Both the position numbers and the translations under genes were made by a program. A stretch of 64,000 nucleotides of DNA, taken from contig NZ_FMTP01000001.1 of NCBI RefSeq assembly GCF_900100155.1, positions 682,001 through 746,000 on the forward strand. Direction: 5' to 3'. Of this stretch, positions 4,307 to 58,882 are shown piece after piece (the first letter of the stretch is position 1; every line of letters begins with the position of its first letter). The notes beneath the pieces are model-generated. The model searched no databases. It was not told the DNA's origin and worked only from the letters and a program-made list of their open reading frames with translations. The DNA comes from Ancylobacter rudongensis (GTDB lineage Bacteria; Pseudomonadota; Alphaproteobacteria; Rhizobiales; Xanthobacteraceae).

Positions 4307-5179
4307 ATGAGCCGGCCGAGCCTGACCACGGACACGGACTATTGCGCGGCGCTGGTGCGCGATCTCGACCGCGACCGCTATGTCGCCGACCTCTTCGCGC
4401 CGGCCGAGCGGCGTGGCGCGCTGTTCGCGCTCCATGCCTTCAATGTCGAGGTCTCGCGGGTGCGCGAGGCGATCACCAACCCGCTGGCCGGGGAGGTGCG
4501 CCTGCACTGGTGGCGCGAGGCGCTGGCCGGCGGGGCGCGCGGCGATGTGCAGGCCAACCCGGTGGCGGCGGCGCTGCTCGCGGCGATCGAAACACACCGC
4601 CTGCCGCGCGCGAGCCTGGAGGCGCTGCTGGAGGCCCGGCAGTTCGACCTCTATGACGACCCGATGCCGACGGTGAACGATCTCGAAGGCTATGCCGGCG
4701 AAACCTCCTCGGCCCTGATCCGCCTTGCCGCGCTGGTGCTGGCGCCGGCGGCAGGCGCGGCCTCCGCCGAGGCGGCCGGCCATGCCGGGGTGGCCTATGC
4801 GGTGACGGGGCTGCTGCGGGCCTTTCCGGTGCATGCGCGGCGCGGCCAGTGCTATCTGCCGCTCGATCTGCTGACCGCGCACGGGCTGACGCGCGAGGAT
4901 GCCGTGTCGGGGCAGGTGAGTCCGGCGCTTCATCAGGTACTGAGCGCGCTGCGGGCGCTGGCGCGCCGGCACCATCAAGCCGCGATGAAGGCGCTGGCCG
5001 GCGTCGACCCGGCCGAATTGCCGGCCTTCCTGCCGCTAACGTTGGTGCCGGGCGATCTTGATCGCATGGAACGCCCGCACGATCCGTTCATGGCCGTCCC
5101 GGCGGCGCCCGCGCTCTCCCGCCTGTGGCGGCTCTGGCGCGGCGCCGCGGCGCTCAGGAAGGCCGTGAAGGCCCCCTGA
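4307..5179 (+). CDS. Squalene/phytoene synthase-family protein lacking catalytic Asp motifs (NDUFAF6-like)
   Basis: The 290-residue product has the all-helical squalene/phytoene synthase fold, as judged by the segments ALFALHAFNVEVSRVR, EVRLHWWREAL, YAGETSSALIRL and RRGQCYLPLDLL. Active family enzymes carry two Asp-rich metal-binding motifs, DDxxD near the first segment and a DxxxD before the RGRxYLP motif. Here the equivalents read NVEVS and FPVHA, so isoprenoid synthase activity is unlikely. The HAFNVE segment resembles NDUFAF6, the non-catalytic complex I assembly factor. The gene ends 12 bases from convergent kdsA. Confidence 0.85.
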   Translation: MSRPSLTTDTDYCAALVRDLDRDRYVADLFAPAERRGALFALHAFNVEVSRVREAITNPLAGEVRLHWWREALAGGARGDVQANPVAAALLAAIETHRLPRASLEALLEARQFDLYDDPMPTVNDLEGYAGETSSALIRLAALVLAPAAGAASAEAAGHAGVAYAVTGLLRAFPVHARRGQCYLPLDLLTAHGLTREDAVSGQVSPALHQVLSALRALARRHHQAAMKALAGVDPAELPAFLPLTLVPGDLDRMERPHDPFMAVPAAPALSRLWRLWRGAAALRKAVKAP

Positions 5180-32592: not shown

Positions 32593-33300
32593 ATGGCAAC
32601 CTCACCGTCGACCCTTCCCCCGCGCGCCGCTCTCCACCTCGAAGGCGTCGAGCGCCGCTATGTCCAGGGCGAAGGCACGCTGGAGATCCTGCGTGGTGCC
32701 GACTTCACCGTGCTGGAAGGTCAGTCGGTGGCGCTGGTGGCGCCATCCGGCACCGGCAAGTCGACGCTGCTGCACATTGCCGGCCTGCTGGAGCACCAGG
32801 ACGCCGGCGAGGTGTTCATCGGCGGCACCGCCACCGCCGGGCTGTCCGATGCCGAGCGCACGCGCATCCGCCGCACCGGGGTCGGCTTCGTCTACCAGTT
32901 CCATCATCTGCTGCCGGAATTCTCGGCGCAGGAAAATGTCATGCTGCCGCAGATGATCCGCGGCCTGTCCCGCCGCGAGTCGGCGTCGCGGGCGAAGGAA
33001 CTGCTCAGCTATCTCGGCCTCGCCAAGCGGCTTGAGCATCGCCCCGGCGAACTCTCCGGCGGCGAGCAGCAGCGCGTCGCCATCGCCCGCGCGGTCGCCA
33101 ACGCCCCGCGCGTGCTGCTGGCCGATGAGCCCACAGGCAATCTCGACCCCCACACCGCCGACCATGTGTTCCACGCCCTGTCGCAGCTGGTGGAGGCCAC
33201 CGGGCTGGCGGCTGTTATCGCCACCCATAATCTTGAACTCGCCTCCCGCATGCACCGGCGCGTCACCCTGCGGGAGGGGCAGGTCGTCGAACTCGCCTGA
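32593..33300 (+). CDS. lolD: Lipoprotein-releasing system ATP-binding protein LolD
   Basis: LolD is the ATPase of the lipoprotein exporter. The 235-residue product has Walker [10 protein letters not shown] (residues 50-58), a Q-loop ([16 protein letters not shown], typical of the MacB/LolD group), signature [14 protein letters not shown] and Walker [13 protein letters not shown]. The ATG at 32593 has GGAAGGCG upstream. It ends 91 bases before the first LexA box of the downstream SOS promoter. Confidence 0.96.
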
Positions 33301-33391
33301 GCGCGGGGCGGGGCCGGGCGGCTGGCGCGGGGCGTTTGCGATTCGGCGCGGACGGCACTGGGACTGTTTTCGTTTCGTCAACCATGAACTG

Positions 33392-33406
33392 GAACGAAAG
33401 AAGAAC
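33392..33406. promoter_or_regulatory. LexA box 1 (GAAC-N7-GAAC)
   Basis: GAACGAAAGAAGAAC is a perfect match, on the opposite strand, to the alphaproteobacterial LexA motif GTTC-N7-GTTC. It lies just upstream of the -35 of the micropeptide promoter and 46 bases (centre to centre) from box 2. Confidence 0.75.
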
Positions 33407-33411
33407 ACGGG

Positions 33412-33439
33412 TTGATTGCGGGGATAAGCGGGGTAATGT
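33412..33439 (+). promoter_or_regulatory. Putative promoter of the SOS micropeptide
   Basis: TTGATT (33412-33417), 16-base spacer, TAATGT (33434-33439). LexA box 2 begins on the -10 element and box 1 ends 5 bases before the -35, a layout suited to repression. Confidence 0.6.
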
Positions 33440-33452
33440 TCTCTCTATGTTC
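33438..33452. promoter_or_regulatory. LexA box 2 (GTTC-N7-GTTC)
   Basis: GTTCTCTCTATGTTC is a perfect alphaproteobacterial LexA box overlapping the -10 element and the expected transcription start, 13 bases before the micropeptide ATG. Confidence 0.8.
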
Positions 33453-33465
33453 TAGGGAGGTCGAC

Positions 33466-33564
33466 ATGATCCGTGTTCTTGTCCAGGAAACCGCCGCTCT
33501 CGCGTCCATCGCTCTGTTCGTCGCCATGATCGGCCTGTGGGCCGGGGTCATCACCGGCGTCTGA
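33466..33564 (+). CDS. 32-aa single-span membrane micropeptide under LexA control (SidA-like candidate)
   Basis: The frame encodes 32 residues: a short N-terminus (MIRVLVQE) and one hydrophobic helix (about residues 9-30) ending in ITGV. A near-perfect ribosome binding site, AGGGAGG, lies 5 bases upstream of the ATG, and two LexA boxes flank and overlap its promoter. The Caulobacter checkpoint peptide SidA is a 29-residue LexA-regulated inner-membrane protein that blocks division through FtsW. Size, topology and control match; sequence homology is not shown. The gene lies 225 bases upstream of dnaE. Confidence 0.78.
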   Translation: MIRVLVQETAALASIALFVAMIGLWAGVITGV

Positions 33565-33582
33565 AGGCTCCACGCTTGGGGT

Positions 33583-33703
33583 CTGAGGCATGAAGGCCAA
33601 AGGCCTTCAGCCTGACGCATGAAGGTCTCCGACCTTCAGCCTGTGGCATGAAGGCAGAGGCCGTCAGCCTGAGGCGCGAAGGCCAAAGGCCTTCAACCTG
33701 AGG
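33583..33703. repeat. Four tandem palindromic hairpin repeats between the micropeptide and dnaE
   Basis: Units of 28-29 bases lie at 33583-33610, 33611-33639, 33640-33667 and 33668-33696, followed by a partial unit (CCTGAGG). The consensus is CCTGAGGCATGAAGGCC, then AAA, then GGCCTTCAG. Each unit folds into its own hairpin. Unit 2 changes both arms together (AAGGTC/GACCTT), keeping the pairing, which points to selection or conversion on RNA or cruciform structure. No T tracts follow. Confidence 0.85.
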
Positions 33704-33789
33704 ACAGCGGGGAGGAAGACCCCGCAAGGGTGGACGCCGCCCGGATGGGCGCCCACCATGTCACCCTTCGAGTCGCGGGAGGATCAGAG

Positions 33790-36700
33790 ATGGCGCAGGC
33801 GGATGTCGGTTTCGTGCATCTCCACGTCCATTCCTCCTTCTCCCTGCTGGAGGGCGCGCTCAGCATCGGCAAGCTGGCCGATCTCGCCAAGAAGGACCGC
33901 CAGCCGGCGATCGCGCTGACCGACACCGGCAATCTGTTCGGCGCGCTGGAATTCTCCGAGAAGATGGCCGGCGCCGGCATCCAGCCGATTCTCGGCTGCG
34001 CCGTGGCGGTGGATTTCCCCGGCACCGCGCCGCGCGGCCCCGCCGGGCAGGAGCGCCCGCGCATCGTCCTCCTCGCCGCCAGCGAGGAGGGATGGAAGAA
34101 CCTGATGGAGCTGGTGTCGCGCTCCTTCCTCGACACCGCCTCCGACGGCGCCCCCCACATCAAGGCCGACTGGCTGGACGGGCGCGCCTCCGGTCTGATC
34201 GCTCTGACTGGCGGTCCCTTCGGTCCGATCGACCGGGCGCTGGCGGCCGGCAGCGCCGACCATGCCGAGCAGCGGCTCGTCGCGCTCCGGGACCTGTTCG
34301 GCGACCGGCTTTACGTGGAGATTCAACGCCATGGCGTCGCCGAGGAACGCCGGGTCGAGCCGGCGCTGATCGAGCTCGCCTACCGGCTCGACCTGCCTCT
34401 GGTCGCCACCAACGAACCCTTCTTCGCCGCGCAAGATGATTACGAAGCCCACGACGCCCTGATTTGCATCGCCGAAGGCCGCCTCGTCGCCGAGGCCGAC
34501 CGCCGGCAGCTCACGCCCGATCACCGTTTCCGCACCCGCGCCGAGATGGCCGAGCTGTTTTCGGACTTACCGGAAGCCCTTGCCAATACGGTGGAAATCG
34601 CCCAGCGCTGCGCCTACCGCCCGCGCACCGTCAAGCCGATCCTGCCGCGCTTCACCCGCGACCGCGACGAGGCGGAGGAATTGCGGTTGCAGGCGGAGGA
34701 GGGGCTGCGCAACCGGCTGGCGGTCCATGGCACCACGCCCGGCTTGAGCGAGAAGGACTATGAGGACCGGCTGGCGTTCGAGCTCAGCATCATCGAGAAG
34801 ATGAAGTTTCCCGGTTACTTCCTCATCGTGTCGGACTTCATCAAATGGGCGAAGGCACAGGGGATTCCGGTAGGTCCGGGCCGTGGTTCGGGCGCCGGCT
34901 CGCTCGTCGCCTATTCGCTCACCATCACCGATCTCGACCCGCTGCGCTTCGGCCTTCTGTTCGAGCGCTTCCTGAATCCTGAGCGCGTGTCGATGCCGGA
35001 CTTCGACATCGACTTCTGCCAGGAGCGCCGCGACGAGGTGATCCGCTACGTGCAGCAGCGCTATGGGCGCGACCAGGTGGCGCAGATCATCACTTTCGGC
35101 ACGCTGCAGGCGCGCGGCGTGCTGCGCGATGTCGGCCGGGTGCTGGAAATGCCCTACGGCCAGGTCGACAAGCTCTGCAAGCTGGTGCCGCAGAACCCGG
35201 CCAATCCGGTGACGCTCAAGCAGGCGATCACCGACGAGCCGCGCCTGCAGGGCGAGAGCGACGCCAACCCGGTGGTGAAGCGCGCCTTCGACATCGCCAC
35301 CCGGCTGGAAGGGCTCAACCGCCACGCCTCGACCCACGCCGCCGGCATCGTCATCGGCGACCGGCCGCTGTCGCAGCTGGTGCCTCTCTACCGAGACCCG
35401 CGCTCGGACATGCCGGTCACCCAGTACAATATGAAATGGGTCGAGCAGGCGGGGCTGGTCAAGTTCGACTTCCTCGGCCTGAAAACCCTCACCGTCCTGC
35501 AGACGGCCGTGCGCCTCGTCGCCCAGCGTGGAATCAGGCTCGACCTGTCGACCATCCCGCTGGACGATAAGAAGACCTACGACATGCTGACCCGCGGCGA
35601 GACGGTCGGTGTGTTTCAGGTGGAAAGCGCCGGCATGCGGCGCGCGCTGGTCGACATGAAGCCGGACCGGCTGGAGGACATCATCGCGCTCGTCGCCCTG
35701 TACCGTCCGGGCCCGATGGCGAACATCCCGGTCTATTGCGCGGTCAAGAACGGGCAGGAGAAGGCCGCCTACGCCCACCCGGCGTTGGAAGCCAGCCTGA
35801 AGGAGACCTACGGCGTCATCATCTACCAGGAACAGGTGATGCAGATCGCCCAGACCCTGTCCGGCTATTCGCTCGGCGAAGCCGACATGCTGCGGCGCGC
35901 CATGGGCAAGAAGATTCGCGCCGAGATGGACCAGCAGCGCGCCCGCTTCGTCGATGGCGCGGTGGAACGCGGGGTGCCCAAGGCCAAGGCCTCCGAGATC
36001 TTCGACCTGCTCGCCAAGTTCGCCGATTACGGCTTCAACAAGAGCCACGCGGCGGCCTATGCGCTGGTCTCCTACCAGACCGCCTATATGAAGGCGAACT
36101 ATCCCACCGAGTTCATGGCCGCCTCCATGACGCTGGACATGGGCAACACCGACAAGCTGGCCGAATTCCGCCAGGAATCGCAACGTCTCGGCATCGAGGT
36201 GGTCCCGCCTTCAGTGAACCTCTCGGGGCGCGAGTTTGCGGTGAAGGATGGGCGCATCCTCTACGCCCTTGCCGCCATCAAGGGCGTTGGCGGTCACTCG
36301 GTGGAGGCGATCGTCGAGGCGCGCGGCGAGCGGCCGTTCGCCAGCCTTGCCGACTTCGCCTCGCGCATCAACGCCAAGGCGTTGAACAAGCGGACGATGG
36401 AGAGCTTGGTCAGCGCCGGTGCCTTCGATGCGGTGGAGAGGAATCGCGCCCGGGCGCAGGCGGCGATCGATTTCATCCTCGCCCATGCCGCATCTGTCGG
36501 GGCGGAGGCGGCGTCGGGGCAGGGCAACATGTTTGGTGGACCGTCGGTTGCGGCGGATCTGCCGATCCCCAATGCCGCGCCCTGGCTTCCGGCGGAGAAG
36601 CTGCAGCGCGAATATGACGCCATCGGCTTCTTCCTCACGGGCCACCCGCTCGACGATTACGGCAAGGCGCTGGATAGGCTGCGGGTGCAGCGCTGGACCG

Positions 36701-37224
36701 ACTTCACCCGATCGGTCCGCGCCGGTTCCATGGCGGGTCGCCTTGCGGCCACGGTGGTGAGCCGGCAGGAGCGGCGCACCAAGAGCGGCAACAAGATGGG
36801 CATCGTCGGTCTGTCGGACCCGTCCGGCCAGTTCGAGGCGGTGCTGTTCTCCGAAGCGCTGGCGCAGTACCGCGAATTGCTGGAGCCGGGCAAGGCGCTG
36901 CTGCTGCAGGTCTCGGCCGAACTGCAGGGCGAGGATGTGAGGGCGCGCATCCAGACGGTGGAGCCACTCGACCAGGCCGCGTCGAAGATGCAGAAGGGCA
37001 TGCGCGTCTTTCTGCGCTCGCCCGAACCGCTGGAAAGCGTGGCCACCCGGCTTGGTTCGCTTGGCGGTGGGCGCGGCGATGGCGAGGTGTCGCTGGTGCT
37101 GCTGCTCGGCGAGCGTGGCGATACCGAGGTCGAGGTGAAACTGCCCGGCCGCTTCAGCCTCTCCCCGCAGATCGCCGGTGCGCTGAAGGCGGTTCCCGGC
37201 GTCGAGATGGTGGAGATGGCGTAG
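33790..37224 (+). CDS. dnaE: DNA polymerase III subunit alpha
   Basis: DnaE is the replicative polymerase catalytic subunit. The 1144-residue product opens with the PHP domain (HLHVHS at 10-15) and has PGRGSGAGSLVAYS. The catalytic PDFDIDF motif is at 403-409, with KFDFLGLKTLTVL, a helix-hairpin-helix segment and a C-terminal OB fold (MAGRLAATVVSRQERR). I use the ATG at 33790, with GGGAGGATC upstream; a GTG at 33730 would add 20 residues without family sequence. It is the normal-length replicative form and not the shorter error-prone DnaE2. Confidence 0.97.
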   Translation: MAQADVGFVHLHVHSSFSLLEGALSIGKLADLAKKDRQPAIALTDTGNLFGALEFSEKMAGAGIQPILGCAVAVDFPGTAPRGPAGQERPRIVLLAASEEGWKNLMELVSRSFLDTASDGAPHIKADWLDGRASGLIALTGGPFGPIDRALAAGSADHAEQRLVALRDLFGDRLYVEIQRHGVAEERRVEPALIELAYRLDLPLVATNEPFFAAQDDYEAHDALICIAEGRLVAEADRRQLTPDHRFRTRAEMAELFSDLPEALANTVEIAQRCAYRPRTVKPILPRFTRDRDEAEELRLQAEEGLRNRLAVHGTTPGLSEKDYEDRLAFELSIIEKMKFPGYFLIVSDFIKWAKAQGIPVGPGRGSGAGSLVAYSLTITDLDPLRFGLLFERFLNPERVSMPDFDIDFCQERRDEVIRYVQQRYGRDQVAQIITFGTLQARGVLRDVGRVLEMPYGQVDKLCKLVPQNPANPVTLKQAITDEPRLQGESDANPVVKRAFDIATRLEGLNRHASTHAAGIVIGDRPLSQLVPLYRDPRSDMPVTQYNMKWVEQAGLVKFDFLGLKTLTVLQTAVRLVAQRGIRLDLSTIPLDDKKTYDMLTRGETVGVFQVESAGMRRALVDMKPDRLEDIIALVALYRPGPMANIPVYCAVKNGQEKAAYAHPALEASLKETYGVIIYQEQVMQIAQTLSGYSLGEADMLRRAMGKKIRAEMDQQRARFVDGAVERGVPKAKASEIFDLLAKFADYGFNKSHAAAYALVSYQTAYMKANYPTEFMAASMTLDMGNTDKLAEFRQESQRLGIEVVPPSVNLSGREFAVKDGRILYALAAIKGVGGHSVEAIVEARGERPFASLADFASRINAKALNKRTMESLVSAGAFDAVERNRARAQAAIDFILAHAASVGAEAASGQGNMFGGPSVAADLPIPNAAPWLPAEKLQREYDAIGFFLTGHPLDDYGKALDRLRVQRWTDFTRSVRAGSMAGRLAATVVSRQERRTKSGNKMGIVGLSDPSGQFEAVLFSEALAQYRELLEPGKALLLQVSAELQGEDVRARIQTVEPLDQAASKMQKGMRVFLRSPEPLESVATRLGSLGGGRGDGEVSLVLLLGERGDTEVEVKLPGRFSLSPQIAGALKAVPGVEMVEMA

Positions 37225-55733: not shown

Positions 55734-58112
55734 ATGCACGAGCCGCCGCAGCTGGGGCCGGGAGACGCGCCGCGTCCGCGCGCGCGGACGGTTGTGCTCG
55801 GCCAGCGACAGGCGAGGGGGCATCCGGACAAGTGGCGCCTGCCGGATCTGTCTCTGGCAGGGCTCTGGCAGGGCGCGGCGACGGCGCTGACGCGCGAGCT
55901 CGACGACCGGCGCGGCTTCCTGTTCCTGCCGATCGGCTTCGCCGCCGGGGCCGCGCTCTATTTCGCCGCGCCGCAGGAGCCGCTGCCCTCTGCCGGCTTC
56001 GTGCCGGCCCTCGCCTTTGCCGGTCTCGCCCTTCTGGCGCGGGCGCGGCCCTTCGCCTTCCACCTGCTGGCGCTACTGGCGGTGATCGCGGCCGGTTTCG
56101 CCGTGGCGGCGCTGCAGGTTCAGCTCATGGCGCATCCGGTGCTCGGCACGACGCTGAACGCGGTCGAGGTGCGCGGCTATGTCGAGGCGGCGGAACTGCG
56201 CCCGCGCGGCAGCCGCATCACCCTGGCCGTCACCGGGATGGAGCGTGCCCGGGAGGTGCCGACGCGCGTTCGTGTGACGCTCGCCGGGCGCGAACCGCCC
56301 GCGGTGGGCAGCCATGTGACGCTGCGCGCCACGCTCGGTCCCCCGCCCGGGCCGTCCTATCCCGGCGGCTTCGATTTCGGCCGGGCGATCTGGCTCGATG
56401 GCATCGGCGCCACCGGCTATGCGCTCGGCCGGCCGCAGCTGCGCCCCGCATCTGTCGCGCCGCCGCCAGGGTTGGCCCTGACCACCTGGCTCGACGGTAC
56501 GCGGCGCGCCATCGCGGCGCGCATCCGCGCGGCGCTGCCGGGGGAGGAGGGCGGCGTCGCGGTCGCCCTCGTAACCGGCCTGCGCGATGCAGTGCCGGAA
56601 TCGATCGAGGAGAGCATGCGGATCTCCGGCCTGTCCCATGTGCTGTCGATCTCCGGCCTGCACATGGCGCTGGTGGCGAGCACCGTGTTCTTCCTGGCGC
56701 GGGCGCTGCTGGCGTTGATGCCCGATCTCGCGCTCCACCGCCCGATCAAGGCCTGGGCCGCGCTGCCGGCCATGTTGTCCGCCAGTTTCTACCTCCTGCT
56801 CTCCGGGGCCGAGGTGCCGACCCAGCGTGCCTATCTGATGACTTTGCTGGTGCTCGCCGGCATTGTGCTCGGCCGGCCGGCGCTGACGCTGCGGACGCTG
56901 GCGGTGGCGGCGCTGGTGCTGCTGGCGCTGTCGCCCCGGGCGGTGCTCGATCCCGGCGCGCAGATGTCGTTCGCCGCGACGCTCGGGCTGATCGCGGCCT
57001 ATGAGCGCTTCGGCTTCCTCATCACCCTGCCCTCCGCCAGGGCGGGGCGCTGGCTCGGGATGCCGGCGCGCTATGTCATGGCGCTGGTGCTGGCCTCGCT
57101 GGCGGCGGGCCTGGCGACGGCGCCCTATGCCGCCTACCATTTCCAGCGGCTGGCGCCGCTCAGCCTACTGGCCAATCTCGCGGCCATGCCGGTGGTGTCG
57201 TTCATCGTCATGCCGGCGGGACTTGCCGGCTCGATCCTGATGCCGTTCGGCTGGGACGATCCGGCTTGGCGGCTGATGGGCTGGGGCCTCGCCCGCATGC
57301 GCGACATTTCCGACCTGGTCGCCGCGCTGCCCGGCGCCGACCGCGGCGTGCCGGCCATGCCGGCGGCGAGCCTGGTGCTGGTCAGTCTCGGGCTCATCGT
57401 GCTGTGCCTCGCGCGGACAAGGCTGGTCCTCGTCGCGCCGTTGCTGGCGCTCGCCGGCATCGTCACGGCCGCGACAGCGCCGCGTCCCGACCTTCTGGTC
57501 GATGCCGAGGCGCGTACGGTGGCGGTGCGGGGCAGGGACGGCGCGCTCGCCTTCATGGGCGACCGCGACACGGGGGTGGCCGGGCGCTTCGCGGTCGAGC
57601 AATGGCTGAGCGCGGACGGGCAGCGAGGGCGTTTCGGCGCCAGGGACCTGACCGCAGCGGCCGCCTGCGATCCGCTCGGCTGCACGCTTCCCCTGCCCGA
57701 TGGGCGGCTGGTGGCTCTGTCCCGCGATCGGGATTCGCTGGAGGATGATTGCCGCCTGGCAGCGGTGCTGGTGACGCCCTTCGCGCCGCCGCTCGACTGC
57801 GCGGCGACGGTGGTCCACCGCGATGCGCGCACCGCCATTGGCGGCGTGGCCGGCACATTGATGCCGGATGGCAGCCTCGCTCTCGCCAGCGCCCGCCCAG
57901 TGCAGGGAACGCGGCCCTGGGAGCCGAAAGCCCCGCGTCCGCCGCCGCTCACTTCCGAGCCGGGCGTAGGTGCCTTCTCGTCGCCCGGGAGCAAAAAACC
58001 ATCCTGGCAAGTCGCTACGCCGCCACCCGGAGCCTCTGGCCTTGCCGAGGCGAATGCCGCACCGCCCTTGTCCTCGTCCGAAACGGCGCCGGCCGACGAC
58101 GATGCTCAGTAA
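55734..58112 (+). CDS. comEC: ComEC/Rec2-family membrane protein with degenerate C-terminal domain
   Basis: ComEC forms the inner-membrane DNA uptake channel in competent bacteria. The 792-residue product has an N-terminal DUF4131-like region and a polytopic core with [27 protein letters not shown] and [16 protein letters not shown], typical of the family. The C-terminal part (about 610-700) aligns in position with the metallo-beta-lactamase domain of full ComEC but lacks the HxHxDH metal motif. It ends in a Pro/Ser-rich tail. The stop overlaps convergent lexA by 7 bases. Whether it supports transformation is unknown. Confidence 0.85.
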
Positions 58113-58801
58113 CGGCGGAACAGGCCGACCAGCTTGCCCTGGATGCGCACCCGGTCCGGTCCGAAAATGCGGGTCTCATAGGCCGGGTTGGCGGCCTCAA
58201 GCGCCACCGAGGCGCCCTTGCGGCGCAGGCGCTTGAGCGTGGCTTCCTCGTCATCGATCAACGCGACGACGATCTCGCCGGTGCTGGCGGCGTCGCATTT
58301 GCGGATCAGCGCCAGATCGCCATCGAGAATGCCGGCCTCGATCATCGAATCGCCGCGCACTTCCAGCGCGTAATGCTCACCGCCCGACAGCATTTCCGGC
58401 GGCATGCCGATGGTGTGGTCGCGCGACTGGATGGCGGAAATCGGTGTGCCGGCGGCGATACGGCCCATAACCGGGATCGATACCACGCGGCGGTCCCCAT
58501 CATCGTCCGAGGACGGGCGCACCTTGCCGAGATTGCCCTCGATGACATTGGGGGAAAAGCTGCGGGCAGGCTTTGGCGGCTGCGCATCCTCGGGCAGGCG
58601 GACCACTTCCAGGGCGCGGGCCCGGTTCGGCAGGCGGCGGATAAAGCCGCGCTCTTCCAGTGCCGTGATCAGCCGGTGGATGCCGGACTTCGAGCGCAGG
58701 TCCAGTGCTTCCTTCATTTCCTCGAATGAAGGGGGCACGCCGTCCTGCTGGAGGCGTTCATTGATGAACAGGAGCAGCTCATGCTGTTTGCGGGTGAGCA
58801 T
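58106..58801 (-). CDS. lexA: SOS transcriptional repressor LexA
   Basis: LexA represses SOS genes and cleaves itself when RecA is activated. The 231-residue product has an N-terminal winged helix ([30 protein letters not shown]) and the cleavage site Ala117-Gly118 in RIAAGTPI. The catalytic Ser152 (GDSM) and Lys190 (TLKR) complete the S24 protease site. The ATG at 58801 is preferred over an adjacent TTG at 58804. A LexA box sits in its own promoter. Confidence 0.97.
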
Positions 58802-58853
58802 CAAGAGAACCCCGTCTGCCGGCCGATGCCGGAACGAAACAAATCACGAACAA

Positions 58854-58882
58854 AGACTAGCCGTTCTTATTGTGTTCCACAA
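58854..58882 (-). promoter_or_regulatory. Putative lexA promoter
   Basis: On the minus strand TTGTGG (58882-58877), 17-base spacer, TAGTCT (58859-58854), about 53 bases before the lexA start. The LexA box occupies the spacer. Confidence 0.55.
58863..58877. promoter_or_regulatory. LexA box of lexA (GTTC-N7-GTTC)
   Basis: GTTCTTATTGTGTTC is a perfect alphaproteobacterial LexA motif lying between the -35 and -10 of lexA, indicating autoregulation. It shares the motif with the two boxes at 33392-33452. Confidence 0.82.

Follow-up and report, generated by a model that had tools for sequence, protein, structure and literature searches.

The 489-bp gap upstream of dnaE in the window (the whole 64,000-nucleotide stretch of Ancylobacter rudongensis DNA analysed here) carries a 32-codon frame that is a protein-coding gene under purifying selection. 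This gene is a probable orthologue of Caulobacter sidA, and its family seems to extend across the order and, more sparsely, across the class. SidA itself is described as a 29-residue inner-membrane protein which, among the division inhibitors that the SOS response induces in Caulobacter, is the main one; it acts via FtsW and interacts with both FtsW and FtsN (PMC4211646).

The gene order in this part of the window is a lolC/E-type permease gene, a lolD-like gene, the 489-bp gap, and dnaE. Upstream, the conserved neighbour is the lolD-like ABC ATPase gene (32593–33300, forward strand, start approximate), for which the best NCBIfam model is LolD, matched over residues 93–310 of 313 and under the curated cut-off. 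Downstream, the conserved neighbour dnaE encodes the alpha subunit of the replicative polymerase and occupies 33790–37224 on the forward strand, its ATG having been picked within a frame open from 33730. The gap itself contains two perfect 15-bp LexA boxes, a putative promoter, a ribosome site, and the 32-codon frame. Box 1 (GAACN7GAAC; GAACGAAAGAAGAAC; 33392–33406, forward strand) lies just 5′ of a putative −35 element, TTGATT (33412–33417, forward strand), which is followed at a distance of 16 nt by a putative −10 element, TAATGT (33434–33439, forward strand), and it is this −10 element that box 2 (GAACATAGAGAGAAC; 33438–33452, reverse strand) overlaps. The ribosome binding site GGGAGG (33455–33460, forward strand) stands 5 nt before the ATG at 33466, and the frame (33466–33564, forward strand) closes with the stop codon at 33562–33564 to give the product MIRVLVQETAALASIALFVAMIGLWAGVITGV. 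An earlier, sequence-only reading of this DNA had pointed out the two perfect boxes in opposite orientation, the promoter spacing, the ribosome site, and the 32-codon frame, all of which we could confirm in the sequence. A generic sigma-70 scan did not list the TTGATT-N16-TAATGT promoter; a TTGA is kept at this position (±1), 26–27 nt before box 2, in 26 of 29 genus loci. Likewise, GAGGTC occurs shortly 5′ of the ATG in 24 of the 29 (counted by eye). Further along, at 33569–33703 between peptide and dnaE, there are four copies of a 15-nt motif with a spacing of 28–29 nt. Short apparent palindromes between these copies were seen by eye only, the repeat tool giving no inverted pair, and no intrinsic terminator was listed in the same interval.

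The perfect LexA-box pattern occurs five times in the window as against an expected 0.98, and none of 100 shuffles reached five. Genome-wide, there are 93 occurrences versus 47 for the reversed pattern, so that a single box is often a matter of chance. Two boxes whose starts are 46 bp apart within a promoter, and which are kept throughout the genus, are not. In the same genome, lexA and recA carry the same kind of box as the micropeptide gene. The presumed repressor gene lexA (58112–58798 by extent of the model match, reverse strand; TIGR00498, over cut-off) has one of the five perfect boxes of the window, at 58863–58877 (forward strand), about 65 bp upstream of the match, which serves as a control for the box sequence, and recA (C7:511017-511982) has one about 120 bp upstream. 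We also observed that lexA with its box (58112–58877) is situated some 21 kb downstream of dnaE in the window, and by locus numbers lexA (CC1902) and dnaE (CC1926) are near each other in Caulobacter too (PMC1839093).

The frame behaves as a gene throughout the genus. A search with the peptide found matches in 45 of 61 genomes at E ≤ 1, among them 28 of 29 congeners, all at an E-value of 2.7e-8 or better. The sole congener with no peptide match (G021) is an assembly 91% complete and 8% contaminated in which dnaE was likewise not found. Two perfect LexA boxes precede the frame at every one of the 29 genus loci (28 congeners plus the window), and at 28 of these loci dnaE lies inside the 1.5 kb examined, the exception being G016. 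Among the 27 distinct nucleotide sequences, compared over the first 31 codons, mean pS was 0.385, mean pN 0.108, and mean pN/pS 0.28, with none of the 351 pairs having a pN equal to or above pS; variable sites by codon position numbered 17, 5, and 26 of 31. The peptide has one hydrophobic stretch, predicted to span the membrane, with a best 17-residue Kyte-Doolittle mean of 2.29, and its earlier description as almost one transmembrane helix is a fair one. No Pfam or NCBIfam family matched it at E ≤ 0.001.

To compare the gene with sidA, we placed sidA relative to dnaE in Caulobacter. In C. crescentus, sidA is given as CCNA_02004 (PMC10769358), dnaE as CC1926 (PMC1839093), and recN as ccna_02062 (PMC12700426). 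As recN is CC1983 in the other numbering, the offset of 79 puts dnaE close to CCNA_02005, and hence near sidA, although only approximately, because uvrA gives an offset of 83. Moreover, in four of four genomes named Caulobacter sp. (reached via an RsaA query; two are MAGs), a perfect LexA box is followed by a 29-residue peptide, MIR(V/I)ARESLALVSVA(G/S)FVWMMCTVA(Q/N)LVA, that ends shortly before dnaE. In the genus of one of these, the peptide is matched at E ≤ 1 in 60 of 61 genomes, and of 30 loci taken, the 29 that were readable by motif all have a DnaE N-terminal motif 45–71 nt 3′ of the peptide. Here, a box within 120 nt is perfect at 13 of the 29 loci and has at most one mismatch at all 29 (control, 1 of 29). 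By its length, place, box, and genus, this peptide would be SidA, the genomes being other than C. crescentus, which enters by its locus numbers.

In the window, the traits of SidA recur as follows. The peptide, at 32 residues against 29, has a single predicted span; a LexA-controlled promoter is indicated by the two perfect boxes; and the gene stands just upstream of dnaE, as does sidA of C. crescentus by locus numbers. In a small alignment, the window and Caulobacter peptides have in common an acidic residue at position 7–8 and a Phe in the span. As differences, the window peptide shares only about one residue in three with the Caulobacter peptides that we read (34% identity in that alignment), and the window has two perfect boxes in opposite orientation. 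At the window locus, lolD is directly upstream of the peptide. Pairwise BLASTP of the two peptides gave no alignment at E ≤ 100, so that, with an identity of 34%, the case for homology comes from the profile and the gene place.

From 54 peptides belonging to the window's order (an alternative-frame ORF, L154, having been left out beforehand), we built a profile, which scores the Caulobacter peptides at 24.2–25.7 bits. In control searches, 25.7 bits was reached by none of 5000 full shuffles (highest 18.3; 36 were without a score) and by one of 5000 span-only shuffles (25.8), while none of 143 hydrophobic segments from window frames came up to it (highest 10.6; four without a score). When each profile member was left out in turn, seven of the 54 scored below the Caulobacter peptide. 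Twelve peptides from the class gave 5.6–28.3 bits, six of them between 5.6 and 10.9. With shared place, LexA box, length, and profile match taken together, orthology is the best reading, and the window gene is a probable sidA orthologue. The proposal of the sequence-only reading that this is a counterpart of Caulobacter SidA is thereby supported, and in the stronger form of an orthologue.

Beyond the genus, five of seven other genomes of the family (G030 to G036) have the peptide before dnaE together with at least one perfect box, and in the remaining two, G030 and G035, peptide and perfect box are both missing from the DNA upstream of dnaE, where G030 shows three one-mismatch LexA sites. For the order and class, we read the dnaE-upstream DNA of 110 of 138 order genomes with dnaE and of 60 of 113 class genomes, three of the 113 belonging to the order and not being counted in the class. 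These regions were picked by hand mostly by score, and the shares that follow are not unbiased estimates. A perfect box occurs within 600 bp upstream of dnaE in 64 of the 110 order regions, compared with three for the reversed-pattern control. Of these 64, 55 have a qualifying frame (24–46 residues, single-span, beginning with ATG, with a ribosome-site-like motif, and starting 15–130 nt after the box), as opposed to none on the opposite strand, whereas such a frame occurs anywhere in just six of the 46 regions with no box. In the class, the perfect box was seen in 16 of 60 regions (control, two), leaving 44 sampled dnaE regions with none, and the frame in 11 of the 16 (opposite strand, none) and in one of the 44. 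With one mismatch allowed, the contrast between box and control becomes weaker, at 90 versus 44 of 110 for the order and 32 versus 18 of 60 for the class.

The peptide sequences diverge strongly across the order. They align along a common pattern in which the N-terminus is short, most members have an acidic residue around position 7–8, the span opens with an Ala-rich stretch and contains a Phe, and a Trp is often found near the end. The family profile matches 51 of 140 order genomes, and in the class search it matched 17 of 143 genomes at E ≤ 0.1. Among these 17, only the matches of the window and G201 precede a dnaE that was found, and G201 is itself a member of the order. With so few class matches before dnaE, it is the combination of place, box, and span that carries the family beyond the order. 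On this evidence, the arrangement of LexA box, single-span micropeptide, and dnaE seems to be repeated across the order and, less densely, in the class. The sequence-only reading had itself held that a frame and boxes unconserved in relatives would speak against it, and conservation is what we saw, in the genus as in the order.

In Sinorhizobium meliloti, ribosome profiling is reported to have detected a translated sORF25 in the dnaE1 5′-UTR (PMC10117765). An S. meliloti record has two perfect LexA boxes before dnaE and a frame of 28 residues, to which the profile gives 35.5 bits, and we consider, from place, that sORF25 is probably the same gene as this SidA-like frame, the two having been matched by position and not by letters. 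At that locus (L273), the frame lies at about 4771–4857, the box starts are 11 bp apart, and no gene is listed; the 3.7-Mb record is labelled plasmid pSymB, yet carries dnaE and proS. The lack of a listed gene at the site agrees with the earlier suggestion that such frames are too small for most gene callers, albeit the gene table concerned is stated to be incomplete. The terms "SidA", "SOS", and "LexA" are absent from the main text of PMC10117765.

As for the relationship with dnaE, adjacency is conserved, and we found no support for a regulatory link in the sequences read. It is the peptide, rather than dnaE, that the boxes seem to serve. In G016, a copy of 97% identity is kept together with both boxes, and no dnaE was found in the 8.7 kb that follow (in one assembly); in G030 and G035, the DNA before dnaE lacks peptide and perfect box alike. 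The same observations lend no support to the earlier idea that the position beside dnaE ties replication stress to division arrest. The locus concerned in G016 (L353, G016:C1:1789000-1798500) is one in which the peptide has been parted from dnaE in a single congener. Co-regulation of dnaE by the same boxes is a reading that we did not adopt, because peptide and perfect box are missing together in G030 and G035 and because box-bearing regions with no frame are few, being nine of 64 in the order and five of 16 in the class.

A more specific tie to dnaE would be that the frame encodes a leader peptide (uORF), the translation of which adjusts dnaE, and that dnaE is raised through LexA once damage has occurred. 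The conserved place before dnaE speaks for this, as does the reported translation of sORF25, for which the S. meliloti authors hint at a uORF role in the dnaE1 5′-UTR, such a role being suggested for some ORFs of this kind (PMC10117765). Nonetheless, we regard it as extremely unlikely, and rejected it mainly on G016 and on the further copies of the peptide described below, which are conserved in sequence even where no dnaE match is present, so that the peptide is not always in cis to dnaE. Selection acts on the amino acids, moreover, and the distance to dnaE varies, from 45–71 nt in the Caulobacter genus (to the DnaE motif) to 225 bp in the window (from peptide stop to ATG). A TisB/DinQ-type peptide would be another matter, namely a LexA-controlled single-span product that lowers the membrane potential and slows growth with no divisome target. 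TisB of Escherichia coli is a LexA-controlled single-span micropeptide, and TisB and DinQ act on the membrane potential; the window peptide resembles them in size class, in its one predicted span, and in its apparent control by LexA. In E. coli, DinQ is described as a member of the SOS regulon and as a peptide with one span that is toxic (PMC3567139). We judge this reading very unlikely, given the gene place in common with Caulobacter sidA and the profile similarity, and also no Rfam family matched at 33250–33850, even if an undescribed antisense RNA would escape such a scan.

There is also the prospect that this is a SidA relative which in this order acts in trans on another partner, for example a protease of the envelope or, as many of these bacteria grow from the pole, the machinery of polar growth. 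The strong divergence of the peptides across the order fits with such a change of partner, and we examined FtsW with regard to the substitutions A31K, F145L, and A246T, which are reported to suppress SidA in Caulobacter (PMC4211646). The FtsW of a Caulobacter genome that we read has A31, F145, and A246 at exactly those numbers. In the FtsW of the window genome, Ala and Phe are found at positions 31 and 145, as in Caulobacter, which counts for the preferred explanation given below, and a Ser, which would favour the change of partner, at position 246. Against it, the Ala at position 31 is kept in five of six aligned proteins (the window genome included; two of the six are from Caulobacter), with Ser in the other, a weak argument as A31 may be conserved for other reasons. 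The A31 suppressor is reported to have acted on SidA and not on DidA (PMC4211646). Overall, we see a different partner as improbable.

Our preferred explanation, which we hold to be highly probable, is that the window gene is sidA, is induced in the SOS response, and arrests division via the FtsW/FtsI/FtsN complex. Accepting the gene as the sidA of this Hyphomicrobiales-type genome, LexA would sit in undamaged cells on the two boxes that flank or overlap the promoter and so keep the gene off. Upon DNA damage, RecA would inactivate LexA and the peptide would be made, whereupon it would enter the inner membrane as one helix and hold the septal FtsW/FtsI/FtsN complex inactive, with division waiting for repair. 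The boxes, frame, purifying selection, gene place, profile similarity, and boxed lexA and recA genes on which this builds were all seen directly. LexA control, the division block, and the interaction with FtsW and FtsN are carried over from the Caulobacter publications, and by this analogy we infer that in the present genome, too, the peptide is induced, translated, and inserted into the membrane, and that it has this target and arrests division. Comparable inhibitors are known elsewhere. YneA of Bacillus subtilis and SosA of Staphylococcus aureus, which we liken to the window peptide by description only, are larger and have parts outside the cytoplasm. An interaction with FtsW is reported for YneA (PMC13396833), which like SosA (PMC6851548) is described as an SOS-induced division inhibitor. 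Caulobacter's own DidA is similar in being a small, single-span, DNA-damage-induced division inhibitor, but differs in its length of 71 residues, in being outside SOS control, and in having FtsN as the partner with which it is reported to interact (PMC4211646).

Copies of the peptide also occur away from dnaE. Ten of 29 congeners have a further match elsewhere in the genome, with E-values from 9.6e-8 to 0.22 (in G029, it covers 21 residues only), and four such copies that were tested score 16.3–44.1 bits with the profile. In the 5-kb stretches around these ten copies, there is no perfect LexA box near the frame and no dnaE match. SidA-like peptides of about 30–34 residues with no perfect box were noted at L031, L032, L035, L039, L040, and L043 to L047, and at L308 and L309 (at 4368). 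We scanned the neighbour proteins at six of the ten loci (L031, L032, L039, L040, L043, and L046) and identified phage-type neighbours, among them CI/S24-type repressors, a Cro/C1-type regulator, DUF1643 and DUF2303 proteins, dNMP phosphatases, a sliding clamp of phage type, and a DNA-binding domain of LexA type. L039 and L043, where a single protein apiece supports this, have the thinnest evidence. A ProQ/FinO protein is encoded just upstream of the peptide at L031 and L040, and, with the L031 ProQ-type protein as query, two IMG/VR viral contigs (45 and 59 kb) were recovered in which the peptide overlaps the end of the ProQ-type gene. A tblastn search of the phages collection with two phage-type peptides gave no match. 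Most simply, the further copies would be prophage copies. One could thus picture SidA as an ancestral alphaproteobacterial SOS gene beside dnaE, with no Pfam or NCBIfam family, of which temperate phages took copies, dropped the LexA boxes, and put the gene into their early regions, downstream of an early gene of ProQ/FinO or other type. The division stop would then be timed by the phage and not by the damage state of the host; to us, the case for and against this scenario is evenly balanced.

SidA itself is known, and the newer part here is its wide reach and the phage copies. The SidA work that we found was all in Caulobacter, and our literature search, partial in its coverage, gave no description of SidA outside this genus or in phages, which is a weak indication as the original SidA paper and Erill 2004 may note relatives. 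If the gene does extend across the order and further, these bacteria, nitrogen-fixing symbionts included, would gain a named candidate for their SOS division checkpoint, one that lies outside the Pfam and NCBIfam families and can be deleted in one step. It would likewise offer a reading for a translated and unexplained ORF of S. meliloti. Moreover, the phage copies with no LexA boxes, if they are what they appear to be, would represent a case of a phage using a checkpoint peptide of its host.
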